Assembly: GCA_949317995.1 (NCBI GenBank)
Contig: OX439040.1
Location: forward strand, 71,893,972 to 71,957,971
Direction of reading: 5' to 3'
DNA length: 64,000 bases
Origin: Acholoe squamosa
Taxonomy: Eukaryota; Annelida; Polychaeta; Phyllodocida; Polynoidae
Part shown: piece by piece, positions 3,168 through 64,000 of the stretch
How positions within the stretch are numbered: position 1 is the first letter of the stretch
Layout of the letters: each line of letters starts with the position of its first letter
Notes under the pieces: generated by a model
The model's input: only the letters and a program-made list of their open reading frames with translations
What the model was told of the DNA's origin: nothing
The model's database searches: none
Program-made: the position numbers and the translations under genes

Positions 3168-3177
3168 TATATATATG

Positions 3178-26900: not shown

Positions 26901-26939
26901 TGATAATGTAACATCTTAGCTCTATGAAAACCTTTGGTG

Positions 26940-28399: not shown

Positions 28400-28720
28400 A
28401 TGCTGGAACAAACAGTTCATAGGGTCGAGAACACATCACCATGGACAGGAGGAGTAAGGGCAGACAGGGGTAGGGGCAGACTGCATCAGGGTCAGTAACT
28501 ATTTGACATTTAAGCAGGCCATACTTATACATAAAAGTCCATGGCGCAGAGAGAGGCATTGAGGGTGGGAGAATATAGCCATAAGATAATGACCTTTTAT
28601 TTCCCTTACACCATCAAGATGGAGTAATGCTCCAAGGTCGGTCTGATGTAAGACTGATTTTATGTACAGACGCAGTTCAGGCGTATTGCTCACCAGGCTG
28701 ACATGGATGTATTTATAGCA
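28400..28720. repeat. Partial extra copy of a block II segment
   Basis: Resembles 24590-24760 and 34440-34600: the shared order is 'cagttcat..gg', 'cacatcac.atgg.cagg', 'gcagcat.agg' and 'tgacattta'. It lies just before copy b, as expected from an unequal exchange or an incomplete earlier duplication. No gene is visible between this and 29590. Confidence 0.5.
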
Positions 28721-31700: not shown

Positions 31701-32202
31701 TGGGTAAGTGAATAAAAAAACGACTGCACCTTTAGAAGTTAAAGAATCTAGCACAATAATTGATGAGGTTCCAGTTTCTTCTCCCTCAATGCTTTACTAT
31801 ATCCACTCTACCTATAATGAGTCCAAAGAAGGCAGTAATAGCCCTGCACTATGACATCTAATTCAGCAGAGAGTGTTTACCCCTCCTTCCGGTCATATCA
31901 CATGGGGCATGAATGTCAACAACAGTAGGAACTATTTCTGTGGTCTGCAGACCACATTTCCCAAGTATTTTGGCCCACATTCATTCAAAAATCTATTTGT
32001 ATTTAGCGTTTAATTCATGTTATGAGACAGCACTCGTGGGTTTATGGGTTAATAATCCACGACCGCCATGGAATAATGAGTTTATCTAACGTATTCATCA
32101 ATTATGTATGAATTTCTTACCTTATAACCCCAGAATTAATCCATGAGAAGACATTTTGTAAGTGCATGCAATCCGCACAGTTTGCAAAGGCACCGTAGCC
32201 AT

Positions 32203-34440: not shown

Positions 34441-35576
34441 ATTCTACATTTGATGCTTATATAAACAGCTCACAGGGTGGAGATTAAGCACATCACAATG
34501 GACAGGGGGAAACAGAACAGGAAGAGACATGGGAGAAGGGTAGGCAGCATAAGACCCCATTGACATTTACATATGCCATATTCATAGTTATGTCCTTGAC
34601 ACCCAGTTCGGCCTTGGGGGTATAGGCGAAAGCTGATCAGGTAATGGCTTGCTTTTGGCTAACCCTTTTTTGAACTGCATGATGCCTCAGGCGTTTTTTT
34701 TTTTCTTTTGTATACATGCAGATGATCCTTCATAAGTATGCATGTATCAATGGTGCAGTGTTAGCAACCCCTCATTTAAGACACACTATGATTTCACAAC
34801 AGACCTATAAGCCACACAGAGGAGCTTTTCTGGGACATTTAACTCAAATTAGAACATGCTGGTTGTAAATCTGGGCTGCAGTTGAGGGTGTCTTTATGCG
34901 ATAGAAACCTGGGTCATAAAAGCATTGCAAGCAGGGTTGTATAGTCCCCTCCTTCGTCGGGAACTATAAAACCCTGTAGAATTCATTTTAAACGGCCTTT
35001 AGAGCAGCCATGGGATTTGGAAGGGTTACATGAGGCAGGTATAGTTTAGTTTGATGTACAACGTACACCTTATATACAAGCTATAACGGTATACCTTAAT
35101 ACAGTTAACCTTATGAAAATATACTGCGTCCTATATATGCAGGAGGATCCATAGAAGAGATTTATAGAAATCATGGATTTTCCGACACAGGTAGCAATAA
35201 GTTACGTAGCTTCTAAAAGTGACCGCTGGGCTAAATTTGAATAGCTAATGAGGAATCTAGTGAACACCTAAAAGGATAGGTCCTGAATACTCCTGTCTAC
35301 CCCTCTTGGCTCTCATGTTTACCCTAAACTACTCATGCCTTGATCAAGAAGGAGTCCATAACTATTCATGATTATACCACTATTGTGGCACCTCCCTTAC
35401 TGTTATGCCCTCTCCTACCAGTGCATTATGAGAGCATATACGCACATGTGCATTTTTTTGGATTTTTGGATATACTTTTTCGAGGTCAAGTTGGACTTAG
35501 AATATTTTGGGAAATTTTGGGAGACATACAAATTCAGTCTCGCCATTGTTTCAATGTGAAAAATCGTCCAAACTCG

Positions 35577-35638
35577 TAGGAGAATTGCACCCCGGCCGCA
35601 GTGGAGGTAGGCGAAGACCTTAGCCATAGCGCCACACT
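35577..35638 (-). other. tRNA-like segment in left arm of foldback
   Basis: On the minus strand it reads TGTGGCGCTATGGCTAAGG (A-box region) and then GGGGTGCAATTCTCC in the B-box position. The right-arm partner keeps the better B box GGGGTTCAATTCTCC. It resembles the head of a tRNA-derived short element. It lacks a plausible acceptor stem, so it is not called as a tRNA gene. Confidence 0.55.
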
Positions 35639-35691
35639 TGATGAAACCCAATACGATAGTAAATAACTTCTAACCTGGGGTCCTTGTCCTA

Positions 35692-36110
35692 TGTTTACAC
35701 TCACTTTTCGTATGGAATCCAAACATGACATGTTATAATATCAAAGTTCCAAGAAGTATTCGATCCATAGACGAGGAATGTTTGCTAATTTTCTCCATTT
35801 TCTTCGATATAAATAAGAATCCATTAATTTTCCCAACGTACGCGAGTCGCGGTCCGGCCATTCCCACCCGCCTCCTTGTCCGGCAAAAGTGTGTCAGTGG
35901 CCCGGATGTAGATATAGGTCATCCGCTCGCCGTACGAGGAAGACGGCGAAAATTTCGGACCATTTTGGAAAATCAATCGATTCTTATTTATTTTAAATAT
36001 ATCGGACATATCAAGCATGGAGTATTCACCTAGAATGTCTAAGGATATGTATGTTTTAATTTGAAAACTTGTCATGGTTGGATTCGATACGAAAAGTGAC
36101 TGTATACACA
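35692..36110. mobile_element. Palindromic element, family A
   Basis: The left end is TGTTTACACTCACTTTTCGT followed by ATGGAATCC. The right end carries GATTCGATACGAAAAGTGAC near its terminus, the inverse of the left end. The interior is itself nearly palindromic around 35830-35980 (GGTCCGGCC and GGACCATTTT marks). A relative of about the same size lies at 57836-58242. No coding capacity: a non-autonomous foldback MITE. Here it sits between the two tRNA-bearing arms of the family X composite. Confidence 0.65.
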
Positions 36111-36641
36111 GCGGTACCTCTTCCGGCAAGGAACAAAAACAATGGCTTCGCGCAGAGCGCTGACCCGGGCCTTATCGCTTGCTTTTACAAAATGTCTTGT
36201 CGTGGCTATATTCTGTGGATATCAGGTTAGAAATTAATACAAGATGGAGGAAAAGGTGGTATTAATGGAATGTGGCATAAATATGGCAGCACAAGGGTGG
36301 TATATTGACGAATATTACACATCCATTGATTTTCCAAAATGGTCCGAAATTTTCGCCGTCTTCCTCGTACGGCGAGCGGATGACCTATATCTACATCCGG
36401 GCCACTGACACACTTTCGCAGGACAAGGAGGCCGGTGAGAATGGCCGGACCGCAACTCACGTACATTGGGAAAATCAATGGATTCTTATTTATATCGACG
36501 AAAATAGAGAAAATTAGCACACATTCCTCGTCTATGGATCAAATACTTCTTGGATTCCATACAAAAAGTGAGTGTAAACATAGGACAAGGACCCAAGGTT
36601 AGAAGATATTTACTATCGTATTGGGTTTCATAACCGTTCAG

Positions 36642-36702
36642 TGTGGCGCTATGGCTAAGGTCTTCGCCTACCTCCACTGCGGCCGGGGTTCAATTCTCCT
36701 AC
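36642..36702 (+). other. tRNA-like segment in right arm of foldback
   Basis: GTGTGGCGCTATGGCTAAGG (36641-36660) followed by GGCCGGGGTTCAATTCTCC (36681-36699) gives recognisable A and B box positions at tRNA-like spacing. It is the inverted partner of 35577-35638. This is probably a tRNA-derived Pol III head carried inside the foldback. Whether it is transcribed cannot be judged. Confidence 0.6.
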
Positions 36703-38059
36703 GAGCTTGGATGATTTTTCACATTGAAACAATGGCGAGACTGAATTTGTATGTCTCCCAAAATTTCCAAAAAAGTCCAACTTGACCTCGAAAAAGTATA
36801 TCCAAAAATGCACATGTGCATATATGCTCTCATAATGCACTGGTAGGAGAGGGCATAACAGTAAGGGAGGTGCCAGAATAGTGGTATAATCGTCAATATA
36901 CCACCCTTGTGCTGCCATATTTATGCTATATTCCATTAGTACAGGATCGCATAGTGGTGATCAGTTTACGCCCTTGTAAGTGCCTGTGGGAAGGGTAAAA
37001 TGGTGAAATGTGAAGTGCAGTAATGGAAGTAAAAATGTGTTAATAGCAGGGTGGCATGCATAGGCAACTGAGCACTTACTGATGTCAACTAGAAGGCATT
37101 TCTCAGGATGCTACAACTAGACCCCTTCAAATCATAGTGGGCACACTCACTCTAATGCCATTATAGCCATGCATTTAGTTGTCACTAAAGATGACTGTCC
37201 TATCAAACCCCTTTGTGTTCCAAGGGAGCATATGAAAAAAGTATGAATGTGCATTCATGGCTTCAGTTATCGCGATTCATTATGGTGGAAACTTGCATGC
37301 AACCTCTCCATTTATGTATTACCAGTGTATCTCCGAGCTGTGTACTGTCTCGGAGATCCAATAATACAAGTGAGTTACCCACAAGGTTTTCATTATGTTC
37401 ATAAGAAATAAATGTCATTTTACCTGGTAGGTCAAGTAGCTATAAATAGATGCTTTAAGCAGATGGGATGATAACCTGCATGTATTATAGTGTGCAGTGA
37501 TGTTTTTTTCAGCAGATTTCTGGGGAAGGCATCTATGTTCAAATGAACACCTTCACCTACATCTAAATGTCATGGGACACTTTATGGGCACTGTTTGCAC
37601 CCCACTGTAATACATATATCTTGTTTACATATGAACAAAATCACAACTGCAATAACATACAAAGATTATATAAGATTATATGGGGGGTTGTTAACACACC
37701 GATTATGTCAAAGAAGAGATAATGTTGTGCCCCTGAGCATATCACTACTGCCACCCCCCCCCACAGTCTGCTCCTATACATAAAGCAGTACTCTATCTTA
37801 CAATATGAGGTCCTCGATGAGACTCAGCCTCTTTTAACGGCTGCTGAACATGGTACTAACGACCTTACGGTATTAGCAATAGGGCACCTTACAGTGAGGG
37901 TAGACAGTTATCGTGTCATTAGCTGGTCTAGTTATCATACATTATTAACACCAGAACAAGAGGACTGGGAGCCATTGGCTCTTCATGGGCTTGGATATGA
38001 GGCAGTTTATGGTTAGGGATATAACCCTTAATGGGCCACTAACCAATAAATGTAATACA

Positions 38060-39340: not shown

Positions 39341-40769
39341 ACCTCTTTAATTACACAGGAATAAAACCCAAAGACTTGCCCTCACTACTAAAGTCTGCCC
39401 GCATCTGCTAATCAGACCTGGGTGTCAAGTAGATCAAGGGCAGTGAAAGAAATCTCCTCCTAGCACATTTGGGGAAATGTTAAATGGCTCAGAGTTCAAT
39501 TAGATTCTTTGTACACAGCTTGCTGGGTGTTAGTGCATATGGGTAAATGTTGAAGGAGCTCTATTCATTTCAAGGATAACCTTTATATTACGAGTTGAAC
39601 TTGCAATAAGCTGCATAGTTACATTACTTAAGAGTGATTCTAAAATGCCAAAGTTCTATGTCGTAATGGAATTGTGTGGCATAATTAGAAACATAATTGC
39701 TATTTTAAATAAATGTTGTCCAAGGTAGTTCTTTAACAACCATTATCATGATACATCAGAAAATTACAATATCTTATTTGTGGCATACTAGGTTAATGAT
39801 TGTGTTTGCTTAGAAAAAGAAATTCTAACAAAACTGAGCACAGCAAAGTTCACATCACACATGCTGAGTCAGCTCATGGAAGGTTTTCCACAGCTCTTGT
39901 TTTTTTTTAGCATTTATAAGCTGTCAGGCAGTAAATTGCCAGTAGACCAAATCAAATACCTCTTTTAAAATATTGAGAAATTCAGGGGGGGCATGGCAAT
40001 TCTATTAAATCGTACATGAGGTAGTAGCCAGGCCCTACTAATCATACACACATTAATTCATGCCAATTATATGAAGCTGTCATAACCTAAGCCATTTGTA
40101 CACTGGAAATTACTTAGGGCAACCATCACCTCCTTAGTATCCACACACATATGGATGTCCCCCCCCCAGATTCTTCTCCTGGCTACCACGAGTTCTACAT
40201 CCATCATATAAAATTTCCTGGTAGATTTACATTGCCCATGCAAGAGGTTGGAAGCTAAAACATGCAGATGGGTAGATTTCTTCTCTGAACCCTTTAGACT
40301 GAGACACCGTAAGTTCGTCCACATTACTTGCCACAAACCAATATCATTTAAGAAATCGAGAGAGGAAGGTAGCAAACTAGATAAATAGTATTTTATTTTG
40401 TAATTGCAGGCAAGCTGTAGATGCCAGGCAATTATTGAGAAATTGAGGACATACTAATCTGCAACCTATCTTAAGTTTATCGGAAATACACCATCTGCTG
40501 TCAATTGAACTGCTAATTAATCAACATGCAAAAAGAAAACTGCTGTAGACAACATGCAGCGGGAGAGAGCCTTTTTCCAATCACCGCTCACCTCCACCAC
40601 CGTTAACATTATTTAAAACTACTAAGGAGTGATCTGTAGTTCTTTTGTAACTAGGTGGCTCTACCTAGTCGCACACAACAAATGTGTTAGAACAAAAATT
40701 GCTAAAAAAAAAAAATACCCTTTCAAGATCTTATAAAAACTATGATTATCTAAATTTTAAAAATCCATG

Positions 40770-41213
40770 GTATTAGCTTCATTTGATTATGCTGATTAGG
40801 GTGACAATTATGAACTTTAGCTTATACAAAATAAGGCACTAAGAATTATATATAAGGTAAAACTTGCGAAAAATCCAATTTTCACCACAGCACAGCTACT
40901 TAACAAAGCTGGATGTAAAGAACTAGTTGATAGAAGAGACATGCATCTCCTTTGTTATGCTGTCACATTGAAGTCCAAAGAAGGCTTGGTTGATAATAGA
41001 GACATACCAAGAAGAAGACATATAGGTATGAGACCTAATGTACCAAGGTCAAATAAAACAATAGTTATGAAATCGGCTCTATATAGAGCAATCTCCAGGT
41101 GGAACTCTCTTAAACTGGAGTTTACTATTATTGAAGACCTAAACACCCTCAAAATTCAGATTAAGAAGAACTACAATTCTTGTTTATGTAATGGTCTTAC
41201 TATAACTTAATTG
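40770..41213 (+). pseudogene. 3' end of a CR1/Jockey-like LINE reverse transcriptase ORF, decayed
   Basis: Read in frame with 40941, the translation runs from a FDYAD segment through IQNKALRIIYK (about 40826-40858) to RRDMHLLCY (about 40933-40959) and ISRWNSLKLEF (about 41088-41120), ending at the stop at 41208-41210. This order (DYAD, QNKALRII, RR..HLL, R..WN.L) is typical of the C-terminal part of non-LTR reverse transcriptase proteins of the CR1/Jockey group (family knowledge). Two TAG stops interrupt the first 20 codons, so it is a dead 5'-truncated copy. The 89-codon open stretch from 40941 is what remains open. It lies in an insertion absent from block IV copy b. Confidence 0.75.
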
Positions 41214-41242
41214 AAAATTTATTAAAATCGAAACTAACCAGG

Positions 41243-41815
41243 GTCTACCATGATGCCAAACTTATTTTTGGCAAATGCAAGAATAAATCCCTCAAGGATA
41301 AACTGGTCCACACCTCGACCAGTACCAAACCAGAGAGACCGAAAGGTCTACACTTATGAAATCACCCATGCAAATGCCCCAAAGGCTGCAAGTATTGTTC
41401 AAACATTGACAAGAGTGGCTTCATCACTTCTAAGGTGACTGGACGGTCATTCAGAACATTAATTCAAGTAAATTGTCAAACTGAAAACTTAATTTATGCT
41501 ATTACATGCAAATATTGTAAAATTTAGTATGTTTGACAGACAGAGAAAAAGCTACTGGACAGGTTTTGTGGACACATGGGTGACATTAAATACCTACATC
41601 ATGACACCACAGTAGCATTTTAGAGCATGCCCCAATGACCACAGGCCCCCAAATGAATGCTTGGAAGATGGCCCTGTGATCAGCATCTTAAGCTTCATAA
41701 AAAATCCAGCCACCTCAATGGCAGGGATCTCGAAAAAAGAAACAGAGAGGAGAAAAGATGGATGCATCGTTTATGCAGCATTAATCCCAATGGACTCAAT
41801 CTCCTTGACTAAATC
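41243..41815 (+). pseudogene. Penelope-like element C-terminal GIY-YIG endonuclease, decayed
   Basis: In a single frame starting at 41243 the translation shows LKDKLVH, then a cysteine cluster CKCPKGCKYC, then TGRSF, NLIYAITCKYC and RFCGHMGDIKY, and finally REEKRWMHRLCSINPNGLN (41747-41803). This succession (LKD.LVH, CxC..C..C, IY.ITC..C, RF..H..DI, E..WI..L....P.GLN) is the C-terminal zinc-finger-like region and GIY-YIG endonuclease of Penelope-like retroelements. The frame is unbroken by indels but carries several stop codons, including two within the canonical catalytic QYVGQT region (read here as I*YV*QTE), so the copy is inactive. It starts about 30 bp after the end of the LINE fragment. 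Confidence 0.85.
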
Positions 41816-42045
41816 TAGTGGTTCCCCAGCTCCATTAAGAAGAAGAGATAATTTATTAACGCACTCTGTTTGTTTCACTCTTCATTTCAACATCAATTCT
41901 TATCCCTATGTAGATGAATTACTGTGAGATACAATCAAACACTTTTCTAGAAAACAATTGTACTGTATTATATACATCGCCACCAAATTGTACAATATGC
42001 TTCTTTTACTACACAGAGAAAAGAAGACTGATCGCTTTGACACAT

Positions 42046-42264
42046 ACTGCACAGGTCACGATTGTCTCCCACATGACATGCGTGAAAGGCATGTTGAACG
42101 AGGTTGACACTCTCACATTTGGTTTGTCAACTCCACTTGACATGCGTAATGAAGACAATTGTCATGGTGACATATGTGCCATGTCCCAATGACATGTGCT
42201 CTATGTGTCAAATCAAGTTGACATGGATATACATGTAATTTTGTCATTTTGACTTTTTTCAGTG
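42046..42264. mobile_element. Small TIR-like element with repeated TTGACATG motifs
   Basis: The right end is GACTTTTTTCAGTG followed by TA. The left end (TACTGCACAGGTCACGATTG) is a poor inverse of it. Inside, TGACATG-like motifs repeat five or more times in both orientations. The terminus resembles the CACTG ends of the 24743-25650 family, so it may be a distant relative. Borders are uncertain. Confidence 0.35.
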
Positions 42265-45200
42265 TAGTTATATGAGAATAGTAGGGGTCCCTAGCGGAGG
42301 GAAGGTGGAGGCTAGGTGGATGATGCACTGTATTGCATTAAAAGTTACCACATATTTCGATGTAATTGTATTATCTATGCCCAATAAAAACACTTTAAAA
42401 AACAGGTGAAACAGTTCTGCAATTGGCCCCCTCTAAAACAGATGTGTCCTCAGGTAGGAATATCTGTTTTGAATATATGGTGAAGTCTAGACAGCTAACA
42501 AACAGAGGGCATAATAGTCATACCAACCTAAAATAGTGCCTACAGTGCTATGACTATTCTACCAAATCGTATGTGCAAGATTACATATAGGGACAAATCT
42601 TTAGCTTGTCAGATGTCCTATTGAAATGTGCCTCTCGAAGCCATTTATTTTCATTCAATATGTATCTAAAAAAAATTACAGGAATCTGCAGTCCCGGGTG
42701 AGATCATAATACCTTAAGAATTGGCCTCCTGAGGCACTTTCTCTGTATTCAGTGCTTATTCTTCCCTACGGCAGTCTACCATTTAGACAAGACAGATTTT
42801 GGCAGCACCATTAGTTTGACTACAACATTTAGATTGGGAAATAAAGATTGATTGCTGCTTAAACTCACTGAACGTTTATCCCTTGAATATGACATGCTGC
42901 CGTCAGTCAACATTTTGTGTGATTTACAAAGGAGAAACTCTCTGTTGAGACAATCCTATAGTATTGCATCATATGGTGGATTTAAACATGAGGGTGGAAG
43001 GGCTCCTTTTTTTCCTGTTATTGAGTTATTTACAGATTATTGGCTTGAAATTTAGTAGAATTACAGGCTACACGAGGGACATGCCCCTATCTCCTTTTTC
43101 AAAATCAATTGGCACCTCCTTTGTTTACAGGCAGTATGATATAACAATGCACTTCCATTACAGCTGATCTCATTGCCTACCAAAAGTCATATCCTGTCAC
43201 CTCTCACAACTCCTCACTCTACACCTCATTGCATTGACTTGAGGCCACAACTGCTGCTGTCTGACCTGGAAGTGGAAGCTGACCTTAGGTCAACATCCTG
43301 AGTGCCTGGAGTCCATGCACCTTTGGTTTCGGTCCCCTCTGAGTACTGATGTGTTGGCACTGAGGAAGGTTATAATTACTGGTAATGAAACCTTGGTCAC
43401 TTAGTATAGATAGGCATGAGGGCTTTAAATATTCTTGACTATTAGTGTGTGCATTAACTGTGAAATTATATACAATGCAACTGCAACATTGACTTCAATA
43501 TTTCAACGGACAAATCCAGTGTCGGCACTTCCTTTAGCACAATTGATCCACTTTTGATTCAATAACCTTTCAGGTTTATGTATATATTTCTAGAAAGACA
43601 CTCAAGTTGATATTGTTATTGTCAGGTCAAGATTCTCCTTGATCTAACTGAAAACTCACACCTGCTCAGCACACCATACAATGAGTTACAACAAGCACTG
43701 AGGTCAACATAGCGTGGATGGTGGTAGTTAACAATGACAACAACCTATGCATAAAGAATGATATGGCTGTCTCAGGTGTCTTTCTTGGCTGATAGATGAA
43801 ACACCATTCACAGCTTGGAGACAAGAGGTTTGTGCCTATAGTGTGGCAAAGGTGGACCCAGGCCATGCTAACACCCTAGTGTTATTTCCATTCTCATTTG
43901 ATTGCTAGAATGGTTTGCATAGAGAATGAATTGGAGTATCAAATGTGTGTTTCACCTGATGGAGGAAATGCCATTTACACAAGCAAATGGGTGTAAAAGG
44001 CAGTAGTGGGGAAAAGGTGAGACTATGGGTTTATGGTGTAGATCCACATCATTTAATCATTTTCATTTCCATTTGGTTGTAACCTAAATCAGATGATTTA
44101 GTGTAACTACTATGTCCAAAATGGACCATATCGAATATTAGTCTCTTTCTGATGGCAATCGTCCCCAATTTCATCCCAATGAGATATCAAATTTACAATA
44201 AATAAGCTATTCTTTCATAAGGCACAAACTTATAATCTTATGAGTTGAAGATCACCATTGCAAAGGTTTGTTATTGTCTTGTTATACTTTAAATGAAATT
44301 AATAGAAACTACAAATAACTTGGTCATGCCATAATTTAAGAAGTATCTTCCGGTCGAAAATCATAGAAGGTGTGCATATGACGAATTTGGAGGTATTCCA
44401 GCCCCTACTCTTTGAATTTTAGTTTCCCCCTCTATTTCTTTGGCTCAAAGTGTCAGGCTGGATGAGATCTTCATGTTACATATGGGTTTTGATGGTCCCA
44501 TATGCATATTTTGGGCTCCAGGGGGGTAAAATGTGCCCAAAATGACCAAAATTGTCTGGGCGAAATTGTGTCTGGGAGAATAGTTACAAGCCATGTTGAG
44601 GGCTTAATTTCCTACAGAAACAATCTTCATACCTCCATGAAAATCTCAGGTCCAGACTATTTTGACCTGTAGATTAAGAAAATCATATTATCATTTATGT
44701 CAGAAGTGTCCTTGCTATTGTAAAAGAAGCATACTTATAAGAATTATTTTTCTGGGCACATGTCTGGGCGAATGACATGTAAGGCCCCATATGCACACTT
44801 TCTATGATTTGTGACCTTCCATTACATTCCACATTGGCTGTTCAGGCTAAAATGATACATAAGGCATACCTGTTAAGTGCGATGATATTCCCTTCCCATG
44901 TCTTATAGAAGCTGTGTGAAGGCCTTATTGTCATGATTTCCCTCTACAAGGAAATCTCTACAATCTAAGTTATGTTTCCCTTGTACATCACTTCTCCAAA
45001 TAGTACATGTGTCTTCAGGAGGATATAGTGATTACATAACTTTTAGAATACTAAGTTAAGGATTTTGTTTAGACCTGGCGCACCACTTTTACCGTGAAAT
45101 AAATAATATGTATTTGCATTTTGCCATCTACCTCTGAGGTAAGTAGAGAAATAGCAGAATAAAAGTGTGGAAGATCTACTAAAAGTAGTCAATATATACA

Positions 45201-46319
45201 GGCCTCCTTTTACAGGGTGCCTCCTGGGCCTGTTCTAGCACACCTGTGAATCTGCTATTATATTTGGGAGTGGCCTCTATTATTTGTGCAACTTATTTGA
45301 CTTGTGTTCCGTATGGTCTTTTATAGATACAGATCTGAAATATAATTGGTTAATGGTAAACACCACACAGAATCTGTTCCATACATTACCTCTAGGATAT
45401 GACACACATTAAGCACAAATCCAGTGTAGGTACTCACCTGAAAAGGAGATAAGAAAACAGGTCATGTCAAATTGCATTTAGATGAAGAGGGATTCTTCCT
45501 TCGCAACCTAATGTAATAGAAAATATGTTTATCATGTTCAAATTGATTTTGTAGTGTTCATGAATCTGTCAGAGAACTCTTTTGTTTGAGGTAAATATTT
45601 ACTAAAAAAGAAAACTCAAACAATTTTTTGCAATTGACAGGTTTTTATGATGTTATGGAATGTATTACATATACAAGAGTACTATTTAAACTATCCCTTT
45701 AGATATATCATATGGGTTGAAAAGGGAATTGTACAGAATACATTGCGAAAGTTCTAAAACATCACCACTTTGGAAAATTTCGGTCTGGTCATATTGTTAC
45801 AGGTTAGCGCACTAAACTTACTTTCTGACATTTCTGCATTAACCCTAGCCATGTCATGTCAATAAAGTACTCTTTATTTTCTAATGTTTATTTTGCATGT
45901 CAGCAAGTTGTCTGCTTAGACCACCCATATTTGCCCTGCTCCATTGGCCGTGCAACAACTGATAAATGGGAAGGTTTTGAATATTGATTGTTGTCCAAAC
46001 CCGATCGAGGTTAACCCTTTGGTGATTGTATAAACATATTGCTTGAAGCCAACCTCTCATTTTCGTACACATTTTTGCTTACATTCATGCACTATGACAA
46101 ACAAAGGGCATATTGTACAGGACCATAAGCAGTAATAATTGCAGGGTCTTAAGTGGGCAAAACCTAGAACAGACTACATCATACAAACATGTCATTTTCG
46201 ATACATACACCCCTCCAATATCTATAGTCAGTCAATATGTACACAAGTCTATCAAAAGATATCATTTGAGATCGAATAATTTTCCATTTACATTTCCCAA
46301 TACTATTTTGAAATCTATA

Positions 46320-47618
46320 TGGGTCAATCCACTGAAAGTGGGCACTTGTCCATGGTAGAGGGTCATTTTTAAAAACTAAGAATTAGATCATGAAACTTAA
46401 TTTTATTGATACCCCTATATCTTGGCTCTTAGGAAAGGTTCATTCAAGTTACTAACTGCCAAGCGATCAGTTTTTATTGCAAATATTCAAAATTATGAAA
46501 ATGTAATGGGTGTGAGCAAAATGAATTCTTCTCTACATCACAGAAATATTTGTCAGAACTACATTATTTTTAGTTAGGATATTTGACAAAAGGTCCCAAA
46601 GACACACTATGAAGAAAATAGGAAAAAAAAAGATGGATATTTACAATACATAAGGAAATAATATGAATGTAATGGGCGTGAGCGTAATGGGCGTGAGCGA
46701 AACAACTTTCCCAGTCTTCAGACAGCAACTCAGCAATATAACCTCACCCAGAATTAATCTAGGCAATAGAAATAATCTAAGAATACTTTTAGGATGCATT
46801 TGGAATGCATCAAGCCTGCCAACTTGCTTGCAGTGCATTTTACTCACGCCCTTTACGCTCACGCCCATTACGCTCACGCCCATTACATCTGTCAGTTAAC
46901 CCCTCTTTTTGGCATAACCAAGGCATGTAGAGACTCCAGTCTTTTTTTAAAATGACTTATTAACAATAGATCTTCAAGTTAGGCTGGTTGAAAGAAAGAA
47001 AACTTTGATAGTATTTGTCATGGATACCGAAAATAATGGGCGTGAGCAAAATGGACTTGAAAATACTTGAATATATACTGCACAGTCATGCCTGCAAGTA
47101 GACCCTAAGTTTCTGCACCAGAAAATCCCCTATAATGACCCTAATCTTGGTGGGAAATAAAAAGATTGAGGGTAGTGTTTTAGAAGGCCTACCAGTGTAC
47201 TTTCATTTTGCTCACGCCCATTACAGCACCTGCATTTGGTTATAGAAATGAACAGGGGAAAAGGAATGCCAACCAGAGCACCTCCAAACAACATGAAAAT
47301 GTTAGATAGGACCCCCCACTAAGGAATAGATAAAATTATATTGGTCTGTTGCTGTTTGGCTTGATGGTATAGACCCTGGGATGAGGTGGAAATTGAATAA
47401 AAAGGCAATTTCTGGCCATTTTTGAACTTTGGGCCACCATATCTAAAAAAACAGCAGGCCGACATATGTAAACTTGCCCTTCTTTTGAAGCCCAAGGTGT
47501 TTTCTTTGAAATGAAACCAGAAATAAGAAGAATGGTTACTTACTTCTTATTTTACAGCCCCCTGAATCCAAAAAAGACCAAAAAAGACCCAGGTGCCCAC
47601 TTTCGGTGGATTGACACA
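46320..47618. mobile_element. Non-autonomous TIR DNA transposon, family 1, copy 2
   Basis: Same ends, length and internal order as 1876-3167, same orientation, differing by scattered substitutions. The eight ATGGGCGTGAGC-type motifs are all retained at matching places, with single-base changes in the first forward copy (46503 region) and first inverted copy (46845 region). The left flank ends TCTATA and the right flank begins TATATC. The paralogous block IV copy b reads through this point near 54091 without the element, so it inserted after that duplication into a TA-containing site. No transposase is encoded; the paired 78- and 80-codon frames over the motif region are shadows of the symmetric repeats. 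Confidence 0.85.
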
Positions 47619-49126
47619 TATATCAAATGTGGTAATATGACTGTTTGGCATAATGTAGGCAGACAGCACTGTTCACTTGGGTGGTCTGTTAAAAACACAC
47701 ACTTTAAAAACTTTTTGCATCAGCATTTTCATTTGCCATATGTGTGGTGCATCGACATGTAGTCATTTGTGACAAAGCACTACATTTCCAGTAGTATCAT
47801 GCAAGCAAAGAACATTCCTGCCATAATTCAGTGCGTGGTCCATTTAGATAAAATCCAAATCTGCTGATGCAAGCAAAATGTGCAGACTTTGCCTTTTTAT
47901 ACAGACTTTTATTCATGCATATGCACATCGGAAAGGTCACCCTACCATTAAAGACTGTAAAGAGTGTAAATCTATTCCGTGATCAAATAGATTCTGATTG
48001 TAGAATTCAAGAAGTTTTGTATACATGCCTATTTCCGTGAGCGTGAGTATTCACACTTCCAAAGGCAAAAAAAACAACAGTCCATTTCTCCCTGTAATTA
48101 TCAATGTCTGACTCATCAGGCTTTGGTGTCAAGGAGATCAAGAATGGTAAAAATAATCTCCTCCTGGCATATCTGGAGAAATGTTAAATGACACAGAGTT
48201 TAATCACATGCTTTGTACACATTTTATGGGGTGCTAATGCATATGGGGTACATGACGAAGAAGCTCATTTTGGTATTACTAGCTTAAATTGGAATATGTT
48301 ACATAATAAATAAATGACAAGTGATCCTAAAGATTCTAAATGTTAATGGCATAATTATTGGAATTATTTGGCAAACAATAGTCCCAGGTGATCCTCTAAG
48401 AATCATAGTAATGATACATCAAAAGTCATGATATATTATTTTTAATTTAGTAGGTTAATGATAATTTCCATTAAAATCAATTAATTTTCAGAAAACATAG
48501 CAAAATGAAGTTCAAATTATACAGACAGAGTCAGCTCGTTTAAAGTTTTCCACAACTCTTGGTTTTCAATATATTCTGATGGGCAATAAAACATCGATGA
48601 AGCAAAGCAAATTTCCCTTCAAGATATTGAAAATTAGGGAGGGCAGAGCAATATCAACTCCTATACATGAGCTAGTGTCCAGGCCCTAGTTATCATAACT
48701 ATATTAGCACAGTCTGAAACATAGTTTTAGCAATAAGGTGAAGCTGTCATAACCTGAGCCATTTCTTCACTAGAAATCACTTTCTGCCTTACAAACTATC
48801 ACCTATTTAGTATCCACTTACATGCGGATGTTCCCTGAGTCCTTCCGGAGGCATTATATGTGATTATCTAGTAGTGTTACTTTGCACCATGTTATAGGTT
48901 GGAAACTGAAGCATGGAGTTATGCAGATTTCTTCTCTTATTGCATCAGGCTAAGACACCGGAAGTCACCAACGTCACTCTGACAAAACAATTCATAAAAT
49001 CTAAGAGACAGGAAGGTAGCAAACTAGATGACTATTTTTGTGTTAATTTAGGAAAGGTGTAAATGCCAGAAAATTACTTAGAAATACTAATCACTGACCT
49101 ATCCCGTCCTTGTAGTGTATTGAACA

Positions 49127-49250
49127 AGTAATCAATGGATAACTCATGATGCGTGTGTGTTAGTGGAGGATAATGACACGAGGCCGTAGGCCGAGTGTTA
49201 TTAGCCTTCGCTAACACACACAAGTCATGAGTTATCCATTGACTACTTAT
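49127..49250. repeat. Long hairpin at composite element edge
   Basis: AATCAATGGATAACTCATGA near 49132 is mirrored by TCATGAGTTATCCATTGACT near 49225. TGTGTGTTAG is mirrored by CTAACACACA. The centre is itself palindromic (GACACGAGGCCGTAGGCCGA). It is most likely a foldback MITE or the terminus of the composite element. Confidence 0.75.
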
Positions 49251-49681
49251 TTTATACCACGAAACCAATAAATAATCAATATTATACCAATAAATTCAAG
49301 TTGAAAACAAAAATTATTCCCCCTCCCCGGGACTCGATGCCAGCCATTGTGTGTACACGATCGGTACATACACCTCCTCGCCCGGCAGCAGACAGCGGCA
49401 GCACCCGTCTCGGCTAGCCTTGGCAGCGGCACACGGTGAAAGATTTCAATGCGTCTCGCTGTTATGTTTGTGTATAATACACCTCCTCGCCCGGCAGCGG
49501 ACAGCTAAGGCTTTGAATGCGTCTCGCTTTTATGTTTGTGTATAATACACCTCCTTGCCCAGCAGAAGACAGCGACAGCACACACGGCGAAAAAAAAGCT
49601 TCTGGCGGCTATGTTTGTGTATAATACACTTCGTTGCCTGCCAGCGGACAGCGACAGCGCACACGGCGAAAAAAGATTCGC

Positions 49682-49751
49682 CCGGGCCGGGGCTCGATCC
49701 GTGTACCTCTCACAGCTGAGCGCAAAGCGCTAACCGCTAGACCACCGCGCC
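49682..49751 (-). other. tRNA-Glu-like Pol III head, copy 1
   Basis: On the minus strand: GGCGCGGTGGTCTAGCGGTT (A box TGGTCTAGCGG, a full match to the Pol III consensus) and CGGATCGAGCCCC (B box). The T6 run on the minus strand at 49674-49669 follows about 10 bp beyond and could terminate Pol III. The 5' half resembles tRNA-Glu (GTGGTCTAG.GGTTAG). The T stem pairs badly, so this is a tRNA-derived element head, not a tRNA gene. Confidence 0.65.
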
Positions 49752-49879
49752 TTCTCCGTTCACTGCGTCTCGCGGTTATGTTTGTGTAGAATACACCTCC
49801 TCACCCGGCAGCGGACAGCGACAGCGCACACGGCTTTGTATCATATCCAGACTTGGTTCGAACCGAGCATTTCTCGTCA

Positions 49880-49948
49880 GTCCCTGTGGCGCACTGCATA
49901 AGGGTTGGACTAGGGATCTTAGGCTGCAGGTTCGAGCCCTGCCCTGGT
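49880..49948 (+). other. tRNA-Arg-like Pol III head, copy 1
   Basis: GTGGCGCACTGCATAAGG occupies the D-arm/A-box position and resembles tRNA-Arg (GTGGCGCAATGGATA). A perfect T arm follows (stem GCAGG, loop TTCGAGC, stem CCTGC, 49926-49942). It faces away from the tRNA-Glu-like segment about 130 bp to the left. The copy at 57141-57212 keeps the same layout. A complete acceptor stem was not found, so it is treated as a tRNA-derived segment. Confidence 0.65.
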
Positions 49949-51166
49949 CTAGTCTATCATGGGTTTTAACATGTGACATGTGACATGGGAGAGGCGTGCT
50001 GTTATCCAGGATAACAGCACACCTTAGATGGATAACAGCACGCCTTAGATGGATAACAGCACACCTTACAAAATTGATGTTACAGCCTACAAGGTGTGCA
50101 ACATCGACAGATATGTGGATGGGAATAGACCCCAAAAAGCACTGTGTAACCCACAAATCGTGGTATAAGAGTAAATACCCTGGTCATCTGCTCGCATTCA
50201 AACTGCTAATAAGCATGTTAAAAGAAGACTGCTGTAGATGGCATACTATGATAGAGAGGTATTTCCCAGTTACAGCTCACCTGTACTTCCATTATTAAAG
50301 ACTACTTGGGAGTGTTCTGCAGGTCTTATGTAATATGGTGGTTATTTCTAGTCTCTGCATTTCATATTTTGATGCTGACATCAGGAGAAATTTAATTAGA
50401 ACTCTATATACCTGTTTCACACAATGAGCGAAACAGTCTTACAATTGGCCCTGTGTCCTCAGGAGCTGCCTAACATATAATCCTTGCTATATTAGAGATT
50501 GCTAGATTAGAGAATTGATCAGTACAGGTCTGTGAGAGTGCACTTTGTGGACAGTAATGTTAGCTCCCCAATGATACCAACAACTATTTCACCCACAAAA
50601 GGGCCCCTGTTAGCATATGTTCTGCTTCCGTCAAAAGAGCCTAATGAAATAGCCATGGCTTTAGGAGGAAGGGGTTTTATGTTAAATGACCCCCTTGTGA
50701 GATAATTATGATAACAAAAATAGCATTCAACTCGTTCGGACAGCTAGCCAACACTGACCTGAATTTATACATCTAGTGCTTTGACAGTTTTACCAACACA
50801 TGTGTGCCTTCACACATAAAACTTTGTCTGATTTAGAAGGTATAACTGTCTTGCTATACATGAGATAACCCTAACGTATTACATGCTGTAGCAGATTTGA
50901 ACATTTTTCCTGTAGTTTTTCCTGTAGTTGGTGTTTTTACCTTTTTTGGCCTAAAAATTAGCCAGAAATTAGGGGCTACACTAGAAACTTGCACTCTACT
51001 TTTTTTTCAAATCCGAGATCCACCAATGGCATCTCCTCTCCAAAGTTAGCATGATACACCAAAACCAGAAAACATTCAAATAAAGCCGATCCCATTGATT
51101 ATGATTAGCCATATCTAGTAGATGTTGGCTAGCAAACCATGTCACACAGTCCCCCACTCTACACTA

Positions 51167-51269
51167 CACTGCAAAAATGGTGTTTAGATCCTAAACACAA
51201 TTCTAAACATATTCTTGCAACGTGTTTAGACCTAAACATGTTTAAAATCTAAACACCATTTTTGCAGTG
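51167..51269. mobile_element. TIR element (CACTGCAAAAATGG ends), internal-deletion derivative
   Basis: A 103-bp copy of the 24743-25650 element. It keeps about 52 bp from the left end and about 51 bp from the right end, joined inside AACGT, a short sequence present at both break points of the large copy (near 24796 and 25599). TA flanks both sides. The paralogous position in block IV copy a (near 43225) lacks it. This is how small MITEs arise from larger elements. Confidence 0.9.
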
Positions 51270-53450
51270 TAGGGTGCACCGACTAGAGGACACTATTGCT
51301 GATGTCTGATCCAGAAGTGGAAACCGACCTTAGGTCAACATCCTGAGTGCTCTGAGTCCATGCAGTGTATTGGTATCAGTCCCCTCTCTGTACAGCAATG
51401 GAGGCACAGAGGTAGTAAATAATTCATCACTGGTTCCGAAACTGTCGCCACTGACCACAGATAGACATGAGGGCTTTAGACTTCCTTCACTGAAACTGGA
51501 ACATATTCAATATTCCAATATATATAAATATTAAATGTTGGCCTTTTTTTAATACAGGTGATCCACAGGAAAATTGCCTGTATCTTTAATATATCCTTGG
51601 CAGGTAGAGACGCCCACCGATCTAATTAAATATTCACACCTGCATAGAGGAGCCCATACAATGCCTTACAACAAGCACTGAGGTCAACACAGCATGGGTG
51701 GTGGTAACAATGACAACAGTCCATGCATAAAGAATGATACAGTTGTCCCAGGGTTCTCTAGAATAATTTATGAAACACCATTCATAGGTTGGAGACAAGC
51801 AGTTTATGCAGTTTATAGTGTGGGAAAGGTTGAACCGTGGGGTTCCAGTTCACACTGACACCGTATTCTTATATGGTTGCTGGAAGGGTTTACATAGAGA
51901 ATGAGATGGAGTATCAGATGTCTCTTTTGCCTGATGGATGAAACACCAATTACTCAGGCAACTAGGTATTGGTTAGAGCGGTGATAGGGAAGAGATGGAT
52001 CCAATGGTTCTGGTGTAGTTTAGGACTACCATGCTATTTTCCCTTTTTACCTCTCTGGTTGGTATCAAATTTCTAATTAATAATAAAGCCTATGAAATTT
52101 TAAGTTTTGTTGTTCTAGTTTTGTCTATTATGTATTTCTAATTAATAAGCCATTCTTCCATGTGGCAAACGTTTGGAATGTAATGAGTTGAAGGTGGGAA
52201 TGTATTGCAACTTAAAAGGCAAACTTAAGATTCAAAGATTATGCAAAATGACAAAAGAAGATATGTCCCCTGTTGAGCCTTATTGGTCGTACATAATCAG
52301 GATGTTCCATTTACAAGGTGTGCTTTTTGCGATTCTACGGCACCTCTCATTGTATCAATATTCTTCAAAGACAGAGCCAGTACATGATGGTTCAATGATT
52401 TTGTCCTATCTGATACCAGAGACACCATGGAGTGACAATAAGAATTGGAACAGGAATTGATCGAAAAGAGTGCCCGATATGTCCACCTTCCAACTACACC
52501 TGAATTGGTGATACACACTAAGGGGGCAATCTGCCCCAAGGGACAGATCCACTGGACAGAGGGAGGAACTCTGTCCCCTACACTCCTCCTAACCAGCTCA
52601 AGCCAAGGGCCCCTACAGGTACCCAGGACTAGTACGGAGACACATCCAGAGATCATCGCTGTCAGGTCCCGAATGCTGTCTGTATCATACGAGCCCAGGC
52701 ACCGAGGTCTATCTTACAAAGTTTGCTTGGTAAAGATGCCTCTTGACTCTGTTTTAGTGCACCTGTGAATATGTTGTTATATTTGGGACTAGTCTCTATG
52801 CTTTATGTAACTTATTTGACGGCCCAAGGAGAGTTAATGGCTCTCTTTACCTGTTTTCCTGTAGACTGAAGGTTTAAGATCCGCAGAACTGCATAAGCAG
52901 GAGGAACCTTAGGTAAACACAGCTATTTGAACATAATATATGCCATCCCAGTTTTTCATTTTGAGTAGGCATAATAAGGGATTGTATTTGATGTAAGTTC
53001 CCCATGTTTCCTAACTTAACCCAGTGTTTCCTAACTTAAATATTGCTAGAAAAATAAAATCTAAATCTACTTTGAATTTAGTTCTGAGACACTCAGCAAA
53101 GAAAAGACAAGATCATGACTTTAGTAAAGGGATGCTCTAAACTTGTTAATGGATAATAGTAAGGAAAATGTCTTAAATGGATGCCAAGTTTGTACAGATG
53201 AGAAGATTGCACAAAAGCAGTTCAAACATGAGCCACTTGGACCTCCATAATACAGGTTGATGGGATTCTAAGAGCAACACCACAGTGAACCTGATGAATA
53301 CATTACCCCCAGGATATATCAGGTTTGGGGCAGAAATCCAGTGTAGGCCTAGGTACTCACCTGAAAAGGAGATCAGAAAACAATAAACATTGGGCCATGT
53401 CAAATTGCATCTGGATGAAGTTACACTGTATACTGGGTTCAAGTTTATAG

Positions 53451-53454
<4 letters not shown>

Positions 53455-53535
<81 letters not shown>
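53455..53535. repeat. (TA)n microsatellite
   Basis: About 80 bp of uninterrupted TA repeats. The corresponding stretch of copy a, near 45550, has no such tract, so the tract expanded or arose after the duplication. Confidence 0.95.
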
Positions 53536-53539
<4 letters not shown>

Positions 53540-54328
53540 TGAGGCAGATATTTCTAAATAAATTCACCACAATCTTGTTTTGACAGGTCTTTATATATTA
53601 TGATGAAATAGGATAATCTGCACTACAATAGTATGTCCTACTTAAACTCTTAGATATATCTTGGATATGATTTGGCCTGAAAGGGGAATCATTCAGAATA
53701 CATTGCAAATATTTTACCATTGCCACTTTGGAAAACCCCAGCTTGGTCATATTGCTATCACAACAGTTCACAGTATCAAACTGACTTTCTGGCATTTCTA
53801 CATTTATCCCAGTACATATCAATAAAGTACCCGTTACTTTTCAATATTTATTTTGCATATCAGCAATATTCTGTTTAGACCACTCATATTTTGACCTGCT
53901 CCATTTGCCAAACTACACCATGTAAATAGGGAAGGCACAGACATTGATTGCACTACAAACTCTATGGAGGTTACCCTTGCGTGACAGATACATTCCATCA
54001 ATATCTATAGTTAGTCAATCCACACAAGGCTATCAATAATATTTTTAGATCTGATAATGCCATTTAGATTTCGTAATATTAATTGAAATCTAATGTTGGT
54101 ACTATGAATGTTTGGCAAAATAAGACATCATTGTGTGTTTGGGTGGTCTTTTTTAAAAACCTTTTAACATTAGTATTTTCATTGACCATATGTGTATTCC
54201 GTTGTATGATAACACAACATTTTTAGGGGTATCATGCAACAAAGAGTATTTTAGCCATAGTTCAGGACATGGTCAATTTAGTTTAAAGCAGTATGGAACT
54301 GCTTATTTGCATTTTTATACAGACTTTC

Positions 54329-57418: not shown

Positions 57419-57736
57419 TTTTTTTCGCCGTGTGCGCTGTCGCTGTCCGCTGCCGGGCGAGGAGGTGTATTATACACTAACATAACAGCGAGATGCATCT
57501 TTTTTCGCCGTGTGCGCTGTCGCTGTCGGGCGAGGAGCTGTATTATACACAAACATAACAGCGAGACACATCTTTTTTCGCCATGTGCGCTGTCGCTGTC
57601 CGCTGCCGGGCGAGGAGGTGTATGTATCGATTGTGCACAAACATAACCACGAGAAGCATCTTTTTTCGCTGTGTGCGCTGTCGCTGTCCGCTGCCAGGCG
57701 AGGAGGTGTATGTATCGATTGTACACAAACATAACC
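57419..57736 (+). repeat. GC-rich tandem repeat, four units of about 73-88 bp
   Basis: Each unit begins with T6-T7 followed by CGCC or a variant (57419, 57500, 57573, 57661), then GTGCGCTGTCGCTGTCC, then GGCGAGGAGGTGTAT, and ends in ACAAACATAAC. Units differ by small indels and a TGTATCGATTG insertion in the last two. The inverse array at about 49345-49835 belongs to the other copy of the composite element. Confidence 0.85.
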
Positions 57737-61161: not shown

Positions 61162-62154
61162 CACATATCGAAACAACCAAGTGGCAAACAAGGGATACAT
61201 TATGACCAATCAAAATATCAAGGTGTACTGCCGGATGGCCTCCCAGAGGGTGAAAACGAAACATCTGAAAGTTTGAGGGTAGAGTTGGGAAGAATCTTTT
61301 GGCGCCATGCAAAAATGGAGAGTAGCTGCATTGACGTGGCTCATCGCATTACGAGGAACCCTGGACAAGCTACAAGGCCTGTACTAATAAGGCTGAAATT
61401 CCTGGATGCAAGAAATAAATTGTGGGGGCGAAGAGCACAGTTTAGCGACTACAAAGTAAACGGTGCCCAACTCTGGCTCAGTGAGGATATCCCCACCAAA
61501 CTGAAAGGGGAACTAGCTAAAGTTAAAAAGACGTATTGGGTGGCCAAGAACCATGGCACTTACAGAGAGGTGAGAATGTCGGGCACATCCCTGTACCTCG
61601 ATGGCAAGCTCTACAACAAAGAAAACTGGGACACTCTTCCTGAATATTTGGGACCAGAGGCTCTGGCTACACTAGAGAATGAGAACACTGTAGTTTTCTT
61701 CACCAAGGCCTCCCCTTTTAGCAACCACTACCCTGCTACATTTAAGATTGGAGACAAGACCTACACATCGATGGAGAAATACCTCGCCATACAAAGGTGC
61801 ATTATCGCAAGGCGTGAAGACTTAGAGAGACAGGCATGGCGGCTGGACGTGCCTGCCAAGCTAAAGGGCATACTACATAAGTGCAGGGAAGAGCACAAGG
61901 ACGAATGGATCGCTAAATCCAAGTCCATCGCAATGGAAGGGATTAGGGCTAAGGTCCAACAAAATCCACTCATTCGCCAGCGTCTCCTTAGCACAGGAAA
62001 TAAGGTTATTGGTGAAGCCTCAAAAGATGCTGTATGGGGCATAGGGATGAGACTGACTGATAAGAACGCCTTAAACCAGGAGCTATGGTCTGGAAAAAAC
62101 TTGCTTGGTAAAATTCTCCAAGAAGTGCGCCAGGAATTTGAGGATAATGCTTAA
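61162..62154 (+). CDS. LINE ORF1: L1-type RRM/C-terminal domain fused to a NADAR domain
   Basis: Likely the RNA-binding partner of ORF2 in the retrotransposon particle. The frame is open from 61162 to the stop at 62152; the first in-frame ATG is at 61315, inside the conserved region. Residue numbers count the codon at 61273 as 1. Just before and through about 115 lies an L1 ORF1p-like RRM and C-terminal domain: GLPEGENE, then IDVAHRI (20-26), RPVLIRLKF (35-43), WLSEDIP (68-74) and SLYLDGKLY (106-114). Residues about 138-290 form a NADAR domain (PF08719-type) of normal length: SPFSNHYP (147-154), MEKY (167-170), QNPLIRQRLLSTG (230-242), GEASKDAVWGIG (247-258) and LWSGKNLLGKILQEVR (271-286). 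Most NADAR signature positions are kept; the usual EH near 168 is EK. No N-terminal coiled coil was found. An ATG at 61202 in another frame reads TNQNIKVY, so a one-base shift may have cut the N terminus. NADAR function here is inference. Confidence 0.85.
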   Translation, partial: HISKQPSGKQGIHYDQSKYQGVLPDGLPEGENETSESLRVELGRIFWRHAKMESSCIDVAHRITRNPGQATRPVLIRLKFLDARNKLWGRRAQFSDYKVNGAQLWLSEDIPTKLKGELAKVKKTYWVAKNHGTYREVRMSGTSLYLDGKLYNKENWDTLPEYLGPEALATLENENTVVFFTKASPFSNHYPATFKIGDKTYTSMEKYLAIQRCIIARREDLERQAWRLDVPAKLKGILHKCREEHKDEWIAKSKSIAMEGIRAKVQQNPLIRQRLLSTGNKVIGEASKDAVWGIGMRLTDKNALNQELWSGKNLLGKILQEVRQEFEDNA

Positions 62155-62650
62155 CTTACTCCGCCCCAAAATGTGTACATGTATATGTATGTGTGTGTGT
62201 TGATGGTAATGACTGCAACAGCTGGGTATAATCATGTGGTGCTCAAGATTCATTCAACTTAGGGATGGATCGCAATAGTCTTAATTAAAATACCCAACAA
62301 AAATGAACATATAATCAAACAGCTCTCTCAGGTGCATGAGACACATGGTATATGGAGCAACTAAATGTGAATGCTCTACTTTTCTCTTCTTGTGTGTTTA
62401 TGTTTATCTGTTATTTGTGTGCGCAAGATTATGTACATCATTTTGGTAGTTGTGTTATTGTATTTTGCTTCTATGAGGTGCCAACAGAATGTTAGCAAGG
62501 CTTACATGATGATATATGTGTATTGTACCCTCACAGCGTGGCTGTGGATGATTGTAAGACAACTGAACCTAAAAAGTAGAGTTATTGGTACCCCACAAAT
62601 TCTGTGTAAAACCAAATATAATATGACCCTTATTCTGAATCCAAAATGTT
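62155..62650. other. Spacer between LINE ORF1 and ORF2
   Basis: About 500 bp, longer than the short gap of vertebrate L1. It holds a TG-rich run (about 62180-62201) and the small open frame described separately. No hairpin or clear internal ribosome entry signal could be identified by eye. Confidence 0.6.
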
Positions 62651-62661
62651 ATGACCAATAA
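62371..62661 (+). CDS. Small hydrophobic ORF overlapping the ORF2 start (doubtful)
   Basis: A 96-codon ATG frame with very hydrophobic stretches near residues 1-17, 21-36 and 46-62. The sequence resembles no family I know. Its stop codon lies within ATGACCAATAA (62651-62661), which also contains the ORF2 start, so the frames overlap by 11 bases, a layout compatible with termination-reinitiation. The T-rich spacer could produce such a frame by chance, and it may not be a real protein. Comparison with other copies of the element would decide. Confidence 0.25.
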   Translation: MLYFSLLVCLCLSVICVRKIMYIILVVVLLYFASMRCQQNVSKAYMMIYVYCTLTAWLWMIVRQLNLKSRVIGTPQILCKTKYNMTLILNPKCYDQ

Positions 62662-64000
62662 CACAAGAGTGATTAACCTATGCTCCTTTAATGTTAATGG
62701 CATAAGGGTGAGAGATAAGCGAAGAGCTATTTTCAAGAAGCTAAAGGATGAAAGTTATAATATTGTCTTCCTTCAGGAAACCCACTGCACAGCAGAAGTG
62801 GAAAAGATTTGGAAGGCTGAGTGGGGTGGTGATATGGTATGTGCAAATGGTAGCTCATCATCCAAAGGTGTAGCCATACTCTTCAATAGAAATTACCCTT
62901 ACAAATGCCTAGAAAAGACACTGGATGCCAATGGGAGGTATATTATATTGCACATCGAGGTTCAGGGAGCGGAGTATGTCTTATGCAATATTTATGCTCC
63001 AACACAAAACTATGAAGCAGACCAGATGGCTGTATTAGATGAAATATCAGATAGATTAAAAGGCTATGAAGTCGAAAACTTTCTCCTTGGAGGTGACTTT
63101 AATGAAACCCCGGACCCATATATAGACAGAAGGGCAACTAATAGTATAAGGGCAGCTAATAAGCAGTATAGGAAGCAAATATACGGTCTACAAGATACTC
63201 TCAGCTTAGTAGATATATGGAGAGTTAGACACCCTAATTTACGTAGATATTCTTTTCATAGGCAGGAGCAAGCATCCAGGATAGATTTCTGGCTAGTGTC
63301 TGAGCATTTGACAGGCTTTGTTCATAAAACAGATATCCGTCCTGGAACGCTGTCTGACCACAGTAAGGTAACACTGGGAATCTCCAGTGCTGACCAGGAC
63401 AGAGGCCCAAATGTGTGGAAGTTTAATAATACCCTTCTCTCAGATAAAGACTATGTGAATCAACTTAAGACTATGCTTGGAAAATGTAAGATAGAATACC
63501 AGGATCTGGCACCCAATGCGAAGTGGGAGATTCTGAAGTATGAGATAAGGAAATTTTCAATTAATTACAGCAAAAAGAAGAAGGCAGAGTCTAAAAAGGT
63601 GGAGAGGGAGTTAGCAAACAGTCTGGGCAAATTGACTGCAGCCTTTGATGAGGGCCATGATGTAATTGATGAAATGGAAAGTGTTAAGAGAGACCTGAAA
63701 GATATTGAATTAAAGACAGCTAGAGCCATCATGTTTAGGTCAAAAGCGAATTGGTCCCAGGTGGGTGAACGACCAACCAAATACTTTTTGAATTTAGAAA
63801 AGAAGAATTTTATGGACAAACTTATTACTCAACTGAAAGATCAAAATGGGCATATAGTCACTAAATGCAAAGATATCCTTAGCGTACAGAAGCAATTCTA
63901 CAGAAATCTGTACTCAGATAGCTATAGAGAGTTAGATGATATTGATGACAGTTGTCCCTTCATAGATACAAACAACTTAACTGTCTTGTCTGACAACCAG
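62651..64000 (+). CDS. LINE ORF2 (APE-type endonuclease and start of reverse transcriptase region), 5' part
   Basis: Encodes the element's endonuclease and reverse transcriptase, which nick target DNA and prime reverse transcription there. Start: ATG at 62651, the first after an in-frame stop at 62636. The frame is open for 450 codons to the window edge. Residues 1-245 are an exonuclease-endonuclease-phosphatase domain with all expected motifs: SFNVNG (12-17), LQETH (41-45), IYAPT (114-118), GGDFNE (147-152), SRIDFWLVS (209-217) and LSDHS (234-238). The catalytic Asp, Asn, Glu and His positions are present. A lysine-rich linker follows, then GERPTKYFLNLEKKN (372-386), a hallmark of the L1/Tx1 group before the reverse transcriptase. 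The reverse transcriptase core is beyond the window. The domain layout and absence of stops suggest a potentially functional copy. Confidence 0.93.
   Translation, partial: MTNNTRVINLCSFNVNGIRVRDKRRAIFKKLKDESYNIVFLQETHCTAEVEKIWKAEWGGDMVCANGSSSSKGVAILFNRNYPYKCLEKTLDANGRYIILHIEVQGAEYVLCNIYAPTQNYEADQMAVLDEISDRLKGYEVENFLLGGDFNETPDPYIDRRATNSIRAANKQYRKQIYGLQDTLSLVDIWRVRHPNLRRYSFHRQEQASRIDFWLVSEHLTGFVHKTDIRPGTLSDHSKVTLGISSADQDRGPNVWKFNNTLLSDKDYVNQLKTMLGKCKIEYQDLAPNAKWEILKYEIRKFSINYSKKKKAESKKVERELANSLGKLTAAFDEGHDVIDEMESVKRDLKDIELKTARAIMFRSKANWSQVGERPTKYFLNLEKKNFMDKLITQLKDQNGHIVTKCKDILSVQKQFYRNLYSDSYRELDDIDDSCPFIDTNNLTVLSDNQ

Follow-up and report, generated by a model that had tools for sequence, protein, structure and literature searches.

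An open frame in the genome of the polynoid Acholoe squamosa joins an RNA-binding region of the L1 ORF1p type to a complete NADAR domain, lies upstream of an ORF2 with an APE-type endonuclease, and represents a fusion that recurs in other proteins. From sequence comparison and predicted structures, we propose with roughly even confidence that it belongs to an L1/Tx1-type LINE whose ORF1 protein would bring an eraser of guanine ADP-ribosylation onto the ribonucleoprotein of the element. L1 ORF1p trimers bind element RNA and NADARs hydrolyse guanine ADP-ribose, and it is because of these two properties that the eraser reading is put forward. Documented NADAR activities include hydrolysis of ADP-ribose linked to guanine in DNA (PMC11543638), and an oomycete NADAR is reported to remove ADP-ribose from guanine (PMC11543638, PMC11125620). 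Among the hydrolases tested in another study, NADARs were the only family to reverse guanosine ADP-ribosylation of RNA, and its authors propose that binding to nucleic acid may make the best NADAR more active (PMC11833690).

Architecture of the element

The sequence-only reading of the window (the whole stretch of 64,000 nucleotides analysed here) described one continuous frame running from an L1-type RNA-binding part into a full-length NADAR domain, and Pfam, a profile search and a structure model all confirm it. The frame extends for 330 codons without a stop (Table 1), a length expected by chance with a probability of about 1.6e-9 given the stop frequency of the window. Pfam family PF08719 (NADAR) matches it with 95.7 bits (cut-off 35.1; E=4.7e-27), and because the match spans profile positions 9-162 of 163, the domain is complete. 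Its predicted structure is a YbiA fold.

Table 1. Features of the NADAR-bearing element in the window, with residues counted along the ORF1 open frame
Feature	Position	Strand	Remarks
ORF1 open frame, 3' two thirds: RRM, CTD, NADAR	61162..62154	+	
L1 ORF1p-type RRM, residues about 20-111	61219..61494	+	
L1 ORF1p-type C-terminal domain (CTD), residues about 112-163	61495..61650	+	structural alignment and predicted secondary structure
NADAR domain, residues 164-330; Pfam match 182-326	61651..62151	+	
Glu205, equivalent to E43 of Phytophthora NADAR and E88 of E. coli C7	61774..61776	+	invariant in 12/12 fusions
Arg212, at the K50 / K95 position	61795..61797	+	
Lys235, equivalent to K75	61864..61866	+	invariant in 12/12 fusions
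Glu285, equivalent to E125, the glutamate defining the YbiA type	62014..62016	+	invariant in 12/12 fusions
Spacer, 496 bases, from ORF1 stop to first ATG of ORF2	62155..62650	+	
ORF2 5' part: L1-like APE endonuclease and following stretch	62651..64000	+	window edge precedes RT core

The kinship of the first part of the frame to L1 ORF1p emerged from comparisons other than the Pfam family originally suggested for checking it, PF02994 (Transposase_22), which gave no match above the gathering score. At E≤10, a range in which the HMMER filters drop most weak matches, the window protein has no entry for this family. Among eight relatives, the family appears only for P0005, under the cut-off (E=0.094); the result for P0006 covers 25 of its 59 families. 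In contrast, a profile of 10 fusion proteins matches the human L1 ORF1p structures 2yko (E=8.3e-12), 2ykp (9.1e-12), 2ldy (9.4e-8) and 2w7a (2.1e-5), with the L1 ORF1p matches falling within profile positions 76-233 and the NADAR matches at 273-432. Among the best 50 structure matches, residues 8-163 of the modelled window protein align to the L1 ORF1p trimer (2ykq_B) with an rmsd of 6.7 Å, and a relative, P0002, has a predicted helix at residues 75-173 and aligns with the trimer over residues 131-326. Human LINE-1 ORF1p (2yko, 2ykq, 2ldy, 2w7a) has the same order of coiled coil, RRM and CTD as is predicted for the complete NADAR fusions, but its solved chains carry no NADAR and identity in the structural alignments is 15-21%. 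The predicted order of the complete ORF1 is coiled coil-RRM-CTD-NADAR, with the coiled coil taken from the relatives and its absence in the window copy read as 5' truncation. Upstream of the frame within the window there is no convincing candidate for the coiled-coil half of ORF1, and position 61162 is therefore the start of the open frame and not of the gene; homology of the nearest relative begins only at 61210. The window copy is probably a 5'-truncated, otherwise open, L1/Tx1-type LINE.

That the fusion lies upstream of an endonuclease-bearing ORF2, as had been supposed, is borne out downstream of the spacer. ORF2 begins with an ATG, stays open until the end of the window and carries an APE-type endonuclease (PF03372, E=9.7e-16), and its residues 1-444 align to residues 1-439 of human L1 ORF2p (8sxt, E=2.4e-32). 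Features of the L1 superfamily (L1/Tx1) are present in both frames: the L1-type RRM and CTD in ORF1 and this endonuclease in ORF2. A search with ORF2 returned 1390 matches, the best 120 of which were used for comparison. The best match, P0033, is 64% identical to the window ORF2 and includes the start of RVT_1, and P0042 comprises the endonuclease, nearly the whole of RVT_1 and a zf-RVT. P0033 and the fusion protein P0002 share a source and a contig size of 5264 bases, just as P0042 and the fusion protein P0025 share a source and a contig size of 7435 bases; because the sizes are equal and the source is shared, we infer that each pair lies on one contig, although one of the size matches could be coincidental. 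For the other nine of the 11 fusion contigs, the best 120 of the 1390 matches include no ORF2 on an equal-sized contig. In an ORF2 tree built from the window and 75 of the 120 listed matches (76 rows), the window pairs with P0033 (SH-aLRT 99) and P0042 is placed elsewhere, and because P0042 stands apart from these two, NADAR-ORF1 may occur in at least two ORF2 lineages, provided that P0042 and P0025 do share a contig.

When the element DNA, P0002, P0033, P0042 and P0034 were used as queries against the remainder of the window, nothing beyond chance turned up that would be a further copy of the element. The window contains several other repeats. Two direct copies of 1.3 kb (1869-3172 and 46313-47623) are 95% identical, have the 15-base repeat GTAATGGGCGTGAGC at one side and its reverse complement at the other, and are probably a mobile element; TA microsatellites flank the first copy on both sides. 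Direct duplications, about 66-80% identical, are numerous in about 5570-16291, 21057-31863 and 39404-53984, spaced by about 5.6 to 8.7 kb (e.g., 6485/12874, 21057/29644, 39404/48107 and 43641/51619) with a few wider, and may represent an ancient tandem array or a gene cluster. An inverted repeat (35363-35981 / 36321-36898) has arms of about 0.6 kb that are 87.5% identical, and a tandem array at 57420-57736, with units of 73-88 bases, has a related stretch in inverted orientation at 49350-50177. A 129-codon open frame on the forward strand (40821-41207), with no Pfam match at E≤0.1, resembles the C terminus of a Jockey-type reverse transcriptase.

Type and active site of the NADAR domain

Active-site residues were compared across 12 fusions, including the window, with the Phytophthora nicotianae NADAR (8bau) as the ruler and residue roles taken from PMC11543638. 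The catalytic core is retained throughout: the equivalents of E43, K75 and E125 are invariant, as is that of W89, and both catalytic glutamates are found in 10 of 10 fusions if P0003 and P0009, which have little of ORF1, are left out. The W133 position is always aromatic (Trp in 10, Tyr in one and Phe in one). Glutamate at the E125 position in all 12 fusions makes the domain a YbiA type. In the DarT1-associated NADAR antitoxins, which belong to the same superfamily, an aspartate (D171) replaces this glutamate (PMC11543638). The BC4488 / DarT1-linked type was rejected for the window on this residue, and the DarT-associated proteins named by the sequence-only reading for comparison are thus not the closest. 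The solved chains of 8bau and of E. coli YbiA (2b3w) are stand-alone proteins, unlike the fused domain of the window.

Within the domain, 17 of 146 columns are invariant. These include four of 13 ligand sites (P 0.047), which is only mildly above chance, and the probability that both glutamates fall among them by chance is 0.013. Across nine proteins, mean pairwise identity is 36.5% in NADAR vs 28.3% in RRM-CTD; NADAR exceeds RRM-CTD in 33 of 36 pairs, equals it in one and falls below it in two. Such conservation fits a constraint on an enzyme, although there could be other causes, and the RRM-CTDs may simply evolve faster.

Four residues that contact ADP-ribose in 8bau are replaced in the window (R79 by His, Y84 by Glu, D86 by Lys and R93 by Ser), in addition to the substitution at K50, and some of these contact positions vary in stand-alone NADARs too. 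Because several contacts have changed, the affinity or substrate of the window NADAR may differ. An alternative hypothesis, to which these changes lend some weight, is that the domain acts on a substrate other than guanine in nucleic acid, such as ADP-ribosylated proteins of the host or the element, small ADP-ribose derivatives or by-products of RNA processing, and that host NAD-based signalling is thereby dampened. NADARs of RNA viruses have been argued to counter ADP-ribosylation of host macromolecules, and those of phages may act on soluble derivatives (PMC9503650). We nevertheless consider a different substrate unlikely, as fusion to an RNA-binding protein favours nucleic acid and the activity that has been measured is on guanine ADP-ribose (PMC11543638, PMC11833690).

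The K50 position is Lys in eight of the 12 fusions, Arg in three (the window, P0002 and P0026) and Gln in one (P0009). In the E. coli C7 NADAR, the K95R variant is active in vitro and fails to rescue from DarT1 (PMC11543638). Arg or Gln in four fusions, along with the altered ligand contacts in the subgroup of the window, would also suit a domain that has no catalytic role and either positions the particle by binding RNA or protein that bears ADP-ribose or packs within the ORF1p trimer as a structural part. This we judge improbable, for both catalytic glutamates persist among proteins with as little as 22% identity to P0002, and binding alone would not obviously demand that they be invariant. 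We retain the eraser reading, in which the NADAR domain is a putative hydrolase of guanine ADP-ribose.

Recurrence of the fusion

The sequence-only reading allowed that the fusion might be confined to a single copy; as far as other genomes are concerned it is not, and 11 of the 30 distinct database proteins returned by our searches are ORF1-NADAR fusions. Six appear full-length (P0002, P0006, P0007, P0024, P0026 and P0027), two begin at the RRM (P0005 and P0025), and three have less of ORF1 (P0003, P0004 and P0009); P0004 lacks the RRM, and P0003 and P0009 were counted by eye on a short ORF1 remnant. The 19 proteins excluded from this count are 18 NADARs with no visible ORF1 part (P0008, P0010-P0023 and P0028-P0030) and P0031, which resembles an ORF1 with no NADAR. 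Identity to P0002 ranges from 22 to 54% for the other nine aligned proteins. Searches, each with one short peptide pattern, gave 15 pattern matches and no relatives among viral contigs, and 41 matches among genome contigs, two of them relatives, both in bacterial records and matching in the NADAR part only. Although a single copy was found within the window, a chance juxtaposition, by insertion of a LINE copy beside a host NADAR exon or by an assembly join, was rejected as extremely improbable, since the fusion recurs in the same one-chain order in other proteins, the nearest of which shares 55% identity with the window protein across 95% of the latter.

LINE NADARs form one group in 0% of 200 bootstrap trees of the domain, and a single clade is not rejected by an AU test (p 0.377), so that the two neither show nor reject a single origin. 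Distances in the RRM-CTD and NADAR halves of nine proteins agree with a Mantel r of 0.83 (3 of 10000 permutations), which falls to 0.36 (903 of 10000 permutations) without P0002 and P0026, each a member of a different close pair. Co-inheritance of the two halves is possible, but the agreement owes largely to these two close pairs.

The architecture, for which the sequence-only reading knew of no precedent among L1-type elements, is not wholly new. In Crassostrea gigas, several families of Tx1 LINEs have ORF1 proteins that appear to hold a YbiA-family NADAR, for which the authors suggest, in one sentence, a role in processing RNA intermediates (PMC12477816, Genome Biol 2025). Going by that description, on which our comparison is based, these LINEs are probably the same kind of element as that of the window. 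The same paper describes Gypsy elements of Ectocarpus whose Pol begins with a NADAR, possibly acquired horizontally according to its authors; these too are retroelements with a YbiA-type NADAR, but LTR retrotransposons with the domain in Pol. Our literature search, mostly of non-subscription papers, found no other report of a NADAR in a LINE among the matches listed, and the word NADAR is absent from the main text of two papers on mollusc LINEs (PMC11203168 and PMC10294476). Our analysis adds the order of the domains, the degree to which the catalytic residues are conserved, a predicted fold and a view of how widely the fusion occurs.

Putative role in host-retrotransposon conflict

We speculate that ORF1p trimers coat the RNA of the element and that each subunit contributes a YbiA-type NADAR. 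The NADAR would hydrolyse ADP-ribose from guanine in element RNA or its cDNA, its presumed substrates, and the particle would thus carry its own eraser of nucleic-acid ADP-ribosylation. Left in place, the modification could block reverse transcription or mark the RNA. Candidate sources of such modification are pierisin-like animal enzymes, PARP-family antiviral proteins and other enzymes. The sequence-only reading had suggested that the element may strip ADP-ribose from its RNA or cDNA to evade a host defence; of that reading, the fusion, its place upstream of ORF2, its recurrence and the retained catalytic core are borne out, and the enzymatic activity, the substrate and the host defence we infer. 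The full scenario, in which the RNA-coating protein contains an active guanine ADP-ribosylhydrolase and hosts defend themselves by ADP-ribosylating the RNA or cDNA of retroelements, is possible but doubtful.

Were it true, the NADAR-ORF1 would be a retrotransposon counter-defence parallel to the NADARs of phages and invertebrate RNA viruses, and nucleic-acid ADP-ribosylation would be revealed as an anti-transposon mechanism. The replicase polyproteins of invertebrate RNA viruses, which are among the best 50 structure matches, likewise embed a NADAR in a selfish RNA-based replicon (PMC9503650), although they are polyproteins and not LINEs. What NADARs do in eukaryotes, including animals, has been called unclear (PMC11125620). 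A NADAR joined to the RNA-binding protein of a LINE, with its catalytic residues kept at such low identity, offers a concrete hypothesis for eukaryotic NADARs, and the answer would show whether nucleic-acid ADP-ribosylation matters in the conflict between hosts and retrotransposons.
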